Notes under the pieces: generated by a model | Databases searched by the model: none | Told to the model about the DNA's origin: nothing | Seen by the model: the letters and a program-made list of their open reading frames with translations, nothing else | Position numbers and translations under genes: made by a program | Shown here: positions 30,977-37,083 of the stretch, in pieces | Layout of the letters: every line of letters starts with the position of its first letter | Numbering within the stretch: position 1 is the stretch's first letter | DNA from: Spirochaetae bacterium HGW-Spirochaetae-3 | GTDB taxonomy: Bacteria > Spirochaetota > Spirochaetia > Treponematales > UBA12059 | NCBI GenBank assembly: GCA_002839315.1 | Contig: PGXV01000008.1 | Coordinates: 167,707 to 231,706, forward strand | Length of the DNA stretch: 64,000 nt | Reading direction: 5' to 3'

Positions 30977-31028
30977 TAGGAAAAGTGATCTGTAATCAGC
31001 GATCAGTTATCAAGATAGCGTATCTTCC

Positions 31029-31203
31029 ACAGATTACAGATTACAGATTACAGATTACAGATTACAGATTACAGATTACAGATTACAGATTACAGATTAC
31101 AGATTACAGATCACAGATCACAGATCACAGATCACAGATCACAGATCACAGATCACAGATCACGGATTACGGATTACGGATTACTGATCACGGATTACTG
31201 ATC
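31029..31203. repeat. Heptamer tandem array (ACAGATT/ACAGATC), 25 units
   Basis: Twenty-five uninterrupted 7-base units: eleven ACAGATT, eight ACAGATC, then six variants (ACGGATT four times, ACTGATC twice). Variants are grouped in blocks, as expected from repeated local expansion. The left flank (30985-31010) holds a degenerate inverted copy (GTGATCTGTAATCAGCGATC), so a long hairpin is possible. The array overlaps the last codons of ftsK and lies upstream of the methyltransferase promoter. The 325-base gap 30870-31194 holds this array, the G8 tract and the promoter only. Confidence 0.97.
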
Positions 31204-34842: not shown

Positions 34843-34955
34843 ATGAACGACGAATAGGCGTATCTTTACGGACGAGATTTTTCGTGATCATCCAGAGGCG
34901 TACAACGTTCCGTTCGGCCCCGCCCGTCTACAACCCGCTACACAAGGAAGGCAAC

Positions 34956-35513
34956 ATGGATATCCAGAAAGATCGCGTCGTGTCGATAGACTACATGCTC
35001 AAGGACGATCAGGGACAGATGATCGACCGCTCCGAGGGCGATCCGCTCGTCTATCTCCACGGTAACGACAACATCATCCCCGGCCTCGAGAAGCAGCTCG
35101 CGGGCAAGAAAGCCGGCGACAAGGTCGCCTGCGTCATAGCCCCCGCCGACGCGTACGGCGAGCACGACGAGGAGATGGTGTTCACCGTCTCCAAGAAGGA
35201 CTTCGCCGAGCCCGAGAAGATCGAGGTCGGCATGCAGTTCCAGGCCCAGGAAGAGGGCGGCATGCGCGTCGTAACCATCGTCGGCGTCGCCGGCGACGAG
35301 GTCAAGATCGACGCCAACCACCCGCTCGCCGGCAAGACGCTCCACTTCGACGTAACCGTCAAGGACGTCCGCGAGGCCAGCCCCGAGGAGCTGGAGCACG
35401 GCCACGTGCACGGAGACGACGACGACGGCTGCGGATGCGGTTGCGGCGACGGCGGTTGCGGCGACGGCGAATGCGACGACGAGGGCGGTTGCGGCTGCGG
35501 CGGATGCCACTGA
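34956..35513 (+). CDS. slyD: FKBP-type peptidyl-prolyl isomerase SlyD with Cys-rich metal tail
   Basis: A 185-residue cytosolic prolyl isomerase and chaperone. The FKBP core (DYMLKDDQGQMIDRSEGDP .. FVPGLEKQL-like IIPGLEKQLAGKKAGDK) carries an IF domain and the DANHPLAGKTLHFDVTVKDV segment typical of SlyD. The last 37 residues are almost only Gly, Cys, Asp, Glu and His, with eleven Cys in CGCGCGD..CGCGGCH-type pairs; this tail should bind nickel, zinc or similar metals. The gene overlaps the next reading frame by 10 bases, so the metal tail and the NusG_II protein are encoded on overlapping DNA. Confidence 0.95.
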   Translation: MDIQKDRVVSIDYMLKDDQGQMIDRSEGDPLVYLHGNDNIIPGLEKQLAGKKAGDKVACVIAPADAYGEHDEEMVFTVSKKDFAEPEKIEVGMQFQAQEEGGMRVVTIVGVAGDEVKIDANHPLAGKTLHFDVTVKDVREASPEELEHGHVHGDDDDGCGCGCGDGGCGDGECDDEGGCGCGGCH

Positions 35514-35914
35514 CCGATAGGCACAGCAAGCGGCTGCGGAAGGCGAGGTCTATTCTCAGGCCGCTTGACGTCCTGATCGTAGCCTCGTCGGCCGCATTGC
35601 TCGTCGCGTTGTCCATAGCCGTATACGGCGGCCCCCCGTCGGCGACCCTCGTCGTCTCCACCGAGATGGGCGAATGGGTCTATCCGATGTCGCAAGACAG
35701 GGACATCGAGGCGCAAGGTCCGCTCGGAATCACCTATATACATATCGGGGACGGGAACGCCCATATAGAAGACTCCCCCTGCGCCAACAAGACCTGCGTG
35801 GCGTCCCTTCCGATTAGCAAGACCGGGGAGTGGGCCGCGTGCCTCCCGAACGGCGTGTTCATACACATAGAAGGCGCGGAGGACGACGGTGAAATCGATG
35901 CGTTCGTCAAATAG
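35504..35914 (+). CDS. NusG domain II-containing membrane-anchored protein (EetA-like)
   Basis: A 136-residue protein with one N-terminal membrane anchor (VLIVASSAALLVALSIAVY) and an extracytosolic NusG_II domain. The family cysteines are present: SPCANKTC and AACLPNGVFIHIEG. The domain resembles that of EetA-type accessory proteins in flavin-based electron transfer loci, as far as I recall. The ATG at 35504 lies inside slyD, and the gene overlaps the Gx-transporter gene by 26 bases, so the set is translationally coupled. Confidence 0.85.
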   Translation: MPLTDRHSKRLRKARSILRPLDVLIVASSAALLVALSIAVYGGPPSATLVVSTEMGEWVYPMSQDRDIEAQGPLGITYIHIGDGNAHIEDSPCANKTCVASLPISKTGEWAACLPNGVFIHIEGAEDDGEIDAFVK

Positions 35915-36476
35915 GCCCTCGTTCCCCGACGGCGGCCGCAGGATAGCCGCCTTCCTGGCGGCCCTCGCCTTCTTCCTTTCGACGGTGGAATACATGCTCC
36001 CGAGGCCCGTGCCCTTCATGCGGCTCGGGCTGGCCAACCTTCCCATCCTCATAGCGGTGGACCTCTTACCGTTCGGCGCGTACATGGCGCTGGCCCTGGT
36101 CAAGGTCGTCGGGATGAGCGTGCTCACGGGATCGCTGTTCACGTACGTAGCGCTGTTCTCCCTGGCCGGGACGCTCGCGAGCGCCCTCACGATGCGCGGC
36201 CTCAGGGTCGTCGCCGGTCCCAAGGCGCTCTCGTACGTCGGGCTCTGCGTAGCGGGCGCGGTCGTTTCGAATATGGCGCAGGTCGCGTTGGCCCGCGTAT
36301 TCGTGTTCGGCCCGAGCGCCAAGTTCATGGCGCCTATGTTCCTCGGGCTTGGGCTCGTATCGGGCCTGACGCTCGGAGCCTTTACCCAGGTCTTCGCGTC
36401 CCGCTCGTCATGGCTCGCGAAGGTCCGCTCGAGCGCGCGCGCAAGCGAAGGGGAGGCCCTCGATGACCAGGCCTGA
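35889..36476 (+). CDS. Gx transporter family membrane protein (EetB-like)
   Basis: A 195-residue polytopic protein of the Gx transporter family, often annotated as heptaprenyl diphosphate synthase component I. Typical sequence: PVPFMRLGLANLPILIAVDLL and a glycine-rich ..SVLTGSLFTYVALFSLAGTLAS. The family resembles ECF substrate-binding (S) components. The GTG at 35889 is preferred because GGAGG is six bases before it; the ATG nine bases later is too far from it. It overlaps both neighbours and pairs with the NusG_II protein as in eetA-eetB loci. Confidence 0.85.
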   Translation: MKSMRSSNRPSFPDGGRRIAAFLAALAFFLSTVEYMLPRPVPFMRLGLANLPILIAVDLLPFGAYMALALVKVVGMSVLTGSLFTYVALFSLAGTLASALTMRGLRVVAGPKALSYVGLCVAGAVVSNMAQVALARVFVFGPSAKFMAPMFLGLGLVSGLTLGAFTQVFASRSSWLAKVRSSARASEGEALDDQA

Positions 36477-37083
36477 GCGAAGGGAGCGATGGGAATCCAG
36501 CTTCGATCCGGCGCGGCTCGCGATCGCCGGCGTGGCGCTGTCGGCGTTGCTGCTGTTCCAGCCGACGCTCGCGGGACGCGTCGCAATGCTCGTCGGCGCC
36601 GCCGTCGCCGCGTGGTCGTCGGGCCGCCGCTTGTCCCCGCTGACGACGGCGATCGTGATGGCCAGTATCGTCGGCGCCAACCTCCTCGTTCCCATCGGCC
36701 GCGTCGTCGCTAGCGTCGGTCCGTTCCGCGTAACCGAGACGGCCTTGACGGCGGGCCTGGGCAAGGCGGTGACCTTCGAGGCCCTTATGTTCATCTCCAA
36801 GGCCTGCCTGGGCCCCGGGCTGCGCCTGCCGGGCAGGTTCGGAGAATTCTTCGCCGAGGCCCTGCGCGGCTACGACAGGATCCTGGAGCACAAGTCATCG
36901 GTAAGGATCTCGGGGTTCATAAAGTCCATCGACGAGATCCTGGTTTCGGTTTATGATGGTGCCGCTTCCGCCGCGGAAATCGCGGACAAGGACCGTACGG
37001 TACCCAGGTCCCGGTTCAGGCGTAGCGACATGGCGCTCATCGCCATGATAATGGCCGCCGGGGTTCCGCTCTTCTTCAATTAA
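36463..37083 (+). CDS. Predicted membrane protein, EcfT-like
   Basis: A 206-residue protein with about four helices (LAIAGVALSALLLFQP, VAMLVGAAVAAWSS, LTTAIVMASIVGANLLVPIG, and a C-terminal MALIAMIMAAGVPLFF). The segment VTETALTAGLGKAVTFEALM followed by an amphipathic helix and ALRGYDRILEHKSS recalls the coupling region of ECF transmembrane components. It is short for EcfT and no ECF ATPase is adjacent. It overlaps the Gx gene by 14 bases. An ECF-like T component for the Gx protein is my best guess. Confidence 0.5.
   Translation: MTRPERRERWESSFDPARLAIAGVALSALLLFQPTLAGRVAMLVGAAVAAWSSGRRLSPLTTAIVMASIVGANLLVPIGRVVASVGPFRVTETALTAGLGKAVTFEALMFISKACLGPGLRLPGRFGEFFAEALRGYDRILEHKSSVRISGFIKSIDEILVSVYDGAASAAEIADKDRTVPRSRFRRSDMALIAMIMAAGVPLFFN

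Follow-up and report, generated by a model that had tools for sequence, protein, structure and literature searches.

An EetB-like protein and a divergent short ECF-T-like partner linked to ApbE across Spirochaetia: a candidate flavin exporter core

Results

Here we describe a string of four overlapping genes in the genome of Spirochaetae bacterium HGW-Spirochaetae-3, located in a window (the whole stretch of DNA that was analysed) of 64,000 nucleotides. The genes, all on the forward strand, are the following:

34950..35513, + strand: SlyD-type FKBP peptidyl-prolyl isomerase with a Cys/His-rich tail (PF00254, E 1.6e-11), first gene of the conserved string
35504..35914, + strand: EetA-like NusG_II protein (PF07009, E 4e-17)
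35889..36476, + strand: EetB-like PF07456 (Hpre_diP_synt_I/Gx) protein (PF07456, E 1e-29)
36463..37083, + strand: divergent short ECF-T-like membrane protein, here called the third gene, a putative FmnA-like partner (AF2 model, Foldseek, hhalign and fusions)

The NusG_II gene starts with an ATG at 35504, 10 bases inside the end of slyD; the PF07456 gene starts with a GTG at 35889 and overlaps the NusG_II gene by 26 bases (an alternative ATG is possible at 35898); and the third gene, which extends from an ATG at 36463 to 37083, overlaps the PF07456 gene by 14 bases. Overlaps of this kind suggest translational coupling. The product of 34950..35513 also matched the NCBIfam model for SlyD with an E-value of 3e-39, which is under that model's own cut-off. 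The order SlyD, NusG_II, Gx and third gene is kept in most family-level relatives that have the third gene, and because of this conservation the string is not a product of chance; SlyD lies upstream of the module both in the family relatives and in several treponemes. The neighbours of the string in the window encode UppP, FtsK, SlyD itself, a chemoreceptor and LeuRS, and the window also encodes an RND pump and an outer-membrane efflux protein, as expected for a diderm. At the edge of the FtsK region (approximately 30990-31160) lies a short tandem DNA repeat, which in one frame reads as repeated LQITDYR.

An earlier, sequence-only reading had recognized an overlapping triad of NusG_II, Gx and EcfT-like genes at 35504-37083; these coordinates proved exact, and Pfam confirmed the NusG_II and Gx families. 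It had also singled out a Cys-rich SlyD joined to the triad by overlap, of which the overlap stands but the tail is no special feature, as a Cys-rich tail is ordinary for SlyD. Its description of the triad as "Eet-like" is apt for an exporter but not for a pathway of extracellular electron transfer (EET): genes for Ndh2, DmkA/DmkB, PplA and ApbE/FmnB, and indeed any other gene of the Gram-positive EET system, are absent from the neighbourhood of the string, and a complete EET locus was rejected for this reason.

The NusG_II protein consists of a hydrophobic N-terminal stretch, from which a membrane anchor was read by eye rather than predicted by a program, and a NusG_II domain with the pattern SPCxNxxC...CLPN, whose cysteines (C93, C98 and C113) are invariant across 16 family homologues. 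Its profile matches solved NusG_II proteins (4esn, E 3e-13), and the product of 35504..35914 thus combines the features expected of EetA, a membrane-anchored NusG_II domain and conserved cysteines. No NusG_II gene adjoins the module in the treponemes examined, and the protein is therefore probably not essential for transport; it may serve as an accessory, cysteine-bearing domain outside the cytosol. One genome (G027; loci L108 and L109) carries the complete module of NusG_II, EetB-like and third gene in two copies. At another locus (L112:9477-10166, + strand), an open reading frame resembling an ABC ATPase, either an ECF ATPase or any other ABC ATPase, adjoins the NusG_II gene in divergent orientation.

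The PF07456 protein of the window matches its family with 103.8 bits (cut-off 30) and is encoded by a single-copy gene; it is a predicted flavin-binding subunit of the ECF-S type, for which we infer FAD binding and export by analogy with Listeria. One open reading frame encodes both the PF07456 and the third domain in 12 of the 44 loci examined, which come from several families. One of these natural fusions, encoded by a genome in a single contig, gave a confident model (pLDDT 87.8, pTM 0.84); the S half of this fused homologue (not of the window protein) matches RibU of T. maritima (5kbw; Foldseek probability 0.98, TMt 0.61, E 0.55), and the T half matches EcfT (Foldseek probability 0.97). 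The E-values for the parts are modest because the whole fusion was queried, so that full-length chance matches to other carriers dominate; these low-probability matches to multi-helix carriers were set aside, and the comparison relied on the high-probability part matches to ECF-T and RibU. That the PF07456 and third proteins act together is indicated by their fusions and their frequent adjacency, and the genomic association of PF07456 with ApbE and with an ECF-T-like protein, fusion included, is the one expected of an EetB-type ECF-S subunit. Two families have the third gene apart from eetB, immediately downstream of rpoA-rplQ (L118, 7512-8210, - strand; L120, 7491-8144, + strand), and PF07456 is located elsewhere in most of the genomes of these families that were checked. 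Of the 12 genomes in the order of the window's genome that lack the third gene, 10 have no PF07456 either, and the remaining two have long PF07456 frames, which may represent a hidden, diverged fusion.

The third protein had no significant match in Pfam, remaining outside the cut-off of PF02361 (CbiQ), and an ECF-T search of its own genome recovered four other genes and not the third gene. Weak CbiQ matches were obtained for 4 of 19 members of its family (best E 0.0099), and a genome scan found one homologue that matches CbiQ directly (E 0.009). The AlphaFold (AF2) model of the third protein has a mean pLDDT of 77.5, with an average of 52-63 in the stretch 121-180, and a Foldseek comparison of this model with the PDB placed EcfT or CbiQ structures in all of the top 11 positions (best E 2.8e-4; TMq, by query length, 0.67). 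A profile of 66 diverse homologues aligned with a profile of EcfT proteins of the same lineage (hhalign, E 1.3e-5), with the GPFRVTETALTAGL stretch lying on the EcfT beta hairpin and the following helix; the sole PDB sequence reached by the family profile was again EcfT, at a non-significant E of 1.5. Fold and profile comparisons thus agree on an ECF-T fold for the membrane domain.

The family is shorter than EcfT (median 209 vs 265 residues) and does not have the two Ala-Arg-Gly-type coupling motifs of ECF-T proteins: only 2 of the 66 homologues have an [AS]RG in the second half and none has two, whereas at least one is present in 12 of 19 EcfT reference rows. It has a signature of its own, conserved at 95% or more (P77, G79, T91, A94, G98, S112, P123-G124, G127 and D157), and a two-helix element is conserved in its C-terminus, with an Asp that is nearly invariant. 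By sequence comparison and modelling, the third protein is best described as a remote, shortened relative of ECF-T and not as a standard member. The earlier label "EcfT-like" therefore holds by family profile and fold but not by Pfam for the window protein itself, and an HMM placement outside the ECF families, which had been named as evidence against the earlier reading, is the opposite of what we found, as profile and fold group the third gene with ECF-T.

The operon has no ATPase gene. The sequence-only reading had suggested a search for an ECF ATPase elsewhere in the genome, and ATPase genes do accompany the four other ECF-T genes, as far as their loci were read; likewise, an ECF-type ATPase adjoins an ECF-T gene in each of six module-bearing genomes that were checked, including that of a treponeme with 1.14 Mb. 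The Ala-Arg-Gly motif is the means by which ECF-T proteins grip their ATPases. With neither an ATPase gene in the operon nor a coupling motif in the T-like protein, ATP coupling is uncertain and may be altered; the pair could share an ATPase with other loci, as in Listeria.

The third gene is present in 20 of 23 genomes from the family of the window's genome; a profile search detected it in 309 of 395 genomes and 119 of 133 genera of the class Spirochaetia. A search of a public genome collection with a narrower alignment of the third gene yielded 18 loci, all from MAGs named as spirochaetes. Over the 395 genomes, 293 have both the third gene and ApbE, 16 only the third gene, 38 only ApbE, and 48 neither, for an odds ratio of 23; the corresponding numbers within the order are 77, 0, 6 and 6. 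These are raw genome counts, uncorrected for shared descent. The apbE gene and the third gene are about 1 kb (1.1 kb) or less apart in at least 17 genomes from at least 11 family-level groups, against a chance expectation of approximately 0.001 per genome.

The genome of the window encodes one ApbE with a lipoprotein-type N-terminus, on another contig than the string, and 12 FMN_bind domains. Seven FMN_bind proteins were read, of which five have the exact flavinylation motif D/E-x-x-[ST]-G-A-[ST] and a sixth has D-A-I-A-G-A-T. A FAD_binding_2 domain is likewise found in five of the seven, and most have an N-terminus that by eye is of the lipoprotein or secreted type. ApbE and candidate substrates with the flavinylation motif, on which the sequence-only reading had made itself dependent, are therefore both at hand. 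The same genome encodes a set of paralogous proteins with FMN_bind and FAD_binding_2 domains (L122, L129, L130, L131 and L132), which to judge by their sequences is probably a sizeable group of flavinylated extracytosolic reductases.

A treponeme genome that consists of a single contig of 1,139,633 bases (G099) encodes SlyD followed by a fused PF07456-third open reading frame of 374 amino acids on the - strand (approximately 373,960-375,084; L165:7961-9085). TP0348 has been listed as a hypothetical protein of 374 amino acids on the reverse strand at 374,026-375,150 (PMC3373638), and TP0349 as SlyD (PMC5015957). We take G099 to be Treponema pallidum or a very close relative, and its fused gene to be TP0348. 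No NusG_II gene lies beside the fused gene of G099, in line with a dispensable EetA.

Discussion

In Treponema pallidum, the transfer of flavin by ApbE/Ftp in the periplasm has been studied in detail. The Ftp/ApbE of this species (TP0796; PMC4767422) is a periplasmic user of FAD of the kind that the module described here would feed, and T. pallidum appears to have a fused EetB-T protein in TP0348; within the accessible literature on its flavin trafficking, no transporter that takes FAD out of the cytosol has been named. The closest characterized system is that of Listeria monocytogenes, whose EetB (PF07456) binds FAD and resembles an ECF-S subunit (Rivera-Lugo et al. 2023, PMC9973259). EetB, the ECF-T protein FmnA and EcfA/A' are needed for the flavinylation of PplA unless FAD is added, while deletion of eetA causes no EET phenotype (PMC9973259). 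The spirochaete module shares with EetB-FmnA-EcfA/A' the combination of a PF07456 S-type protein with an ECF-T-type partner, the neighbouring NusG_II/EetA gene, the association with ApbE and the occurrence of S-T fusions. In contrast to Listeria, its T partner is short, unseen by Pfam CbiQ and devoid of coupling motifs, and the string has SlyD in front and no genes for Ndh2, DmkA/B, PplA or an ATPase. Compared with EcfT and CbiQ structures (PDB 8bms, 7nnt, 5x3x), the third protein has the same membrane-domain fold and an aligning G-x-x-x-x-T-x-x-A-L-x-x-G at the beta hairpin and helix, but it is smaller (approximately 206 vs 265 residues), lacks the Ala-Arg-Gly motifs and part of the first coupling helix region, and has conserved residues of its own.

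The occurrence of the module in a diderm had at first seemed an oddity. It is not one, as the module is widespread in Spirochaetia and PF07456, counted in 4,214 genomes, was already known from other phyla besides the predominant Firmicutes (PMC9973259). Flavin-based EET genes of the EetAB/FmnA type have also been proposed for a phylum of the Gram-negative type, Candidatus Effluviviacota (PMC11323493), there as part of a full EET pathway, whereas the spirochaete locus contains the exporter core alone. Among the neighbours of PF07456 genes, eetA was found in 3,328 genomes and ECF-T genes in just 291, and a few S-T fusions were named (PMC9973259); in our reading, the spirochaete T partner would escape family searches of this kind. 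The class-wide divergent T partner, its fusions and its link to ApbE are new here.

The best explanation, to which we assign a probability of about 0.78, is that the module is the core of an ECF-like flavin (FAD) exporter that feeds ApbE. The families and folds of the proteins, their fusions, the co-presence with ApbE and the adjacency of apbE in relatives are direct observations; FAD as the substrate and the outward direction are carried over, as the presumed state of affairs, from EetB/FmnA of Listeria. The PF07456 protein (S-type) and the third protein (short T-type) would form the membrane core, which would move FAD from the cytosol out to the periplasm, where the lipoprotein ApbE would use it to attach FMN to FMN_bind redox proteins. 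The energy would come from an ECF ATPase encoded at another locus, which the T-type protein may engage through shortened coupling helices with the signature L-x-x-PG-x-x-G ... D-x-x-L in place of Ala-Arg-Gly. The earlier proposal of a flavin, quinone or metal delivery module for periplasmic redox proteins is thereby narrowed to flavin, which is favoured by ApbE, FMN_bind and the ECF-T placement, whereas nothing favours the other two cargoes. The existence of EetB-positive genomes without the third gene counts against an exporter core of this composition, although long open frames in several of them hint at a diverged fusion. A bolder version, in which an S-T unit, often a single polypeptide with a T half that has lost the usual ATPase grip, exports FAD in spirochaetes including the agent of syphilis (TP0348), with coupling to ATP either altered or absent, and supplies ApbE directly, is decidedly tentative.

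The most serious variant concerns the energy source and not the exporter itself: flavin might leave the cell with no ATPase involved, the driving force being a gradient or the consumption of periplasmic FAD by ApbE, and the T-like protein being a mere membrane scaffold for the S subunit. The operon without an ATPase gene and the missing Ala-Arg-Gly motifs and shortened C-terminus of the 66 homologues are in keeping with this variant, which we nevertheless find rather doubtful, given that each of the six genomes checked contains one or more further ECF-T loci with an ATPase alongside, that export in Listeria requires EcfA/A' (PMC9973259), and that the C-terminal two-helix element with its nearly invariant Asp has been retained. 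Uptake of riboflavin or FAD by the S/T pair, in the manner of RibU-EcfT, would agree with the usual mode of ECF transporters and with the fold of the EetB half, which resembles the riboflavin importer subunit RibU. Import is nonetheless improbable, as the presence and gene neighbourhood of the pair track ApbE, an extracytosolic user of FAD, and in Listeria export depends on the PF07456 member tested, which is no substitute for RibU in uptake (PMC9973259).

Two further readings assign the string to other cargoes. A metal-delivery unit, composed of SlyD as metallochaperone and a CbiMNQO-like metal ECF transporter, could be suspected from the overlap of the Cys-rich SlyD with the operon and from the metals carried by Cbi-type ECF-T proteins. 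It is very unlikely: the S protein belongs to PF07456 and not to CbiM, SlyD does not adjoin the module in many families of Spirochaetia while ApbE does in several, and a metal role was rejected because a Cbi-type locus, with a Q component and an ATPase of its own, lies elsewhere in the genome. Least credible of all is a function in polyprenyl or quinone metabolism, for which the Pfam family name "heptaprenyl diphosphate synthase component I" is the sole argument and which was rejected on that account; the neighbourhood contains no prenyl synthase gene, the folds are those of ECF-S and ECF-T proteins with a link to ApbE, and the PF07456 protein of Listeria is experimentally a FAD-binding transporter subunit (PMC9973259).

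The class-wide, ApbE-linked pair of an EetB-like and a T-like protein is a concrete candidate for the route by which FAD enters the spirochaete periplasm, with TP0348 as the version of Treponema pallidum. It extends the model of the EetB exporter by a T-type partner that escapes family searches, and this partner may account for some of the genomes in which eetB seems to be without an ECF-T gene. Should the T protein function in the absence of the usual coupling motifs, it would also bear on the question of how an ECF transporter can run outward.
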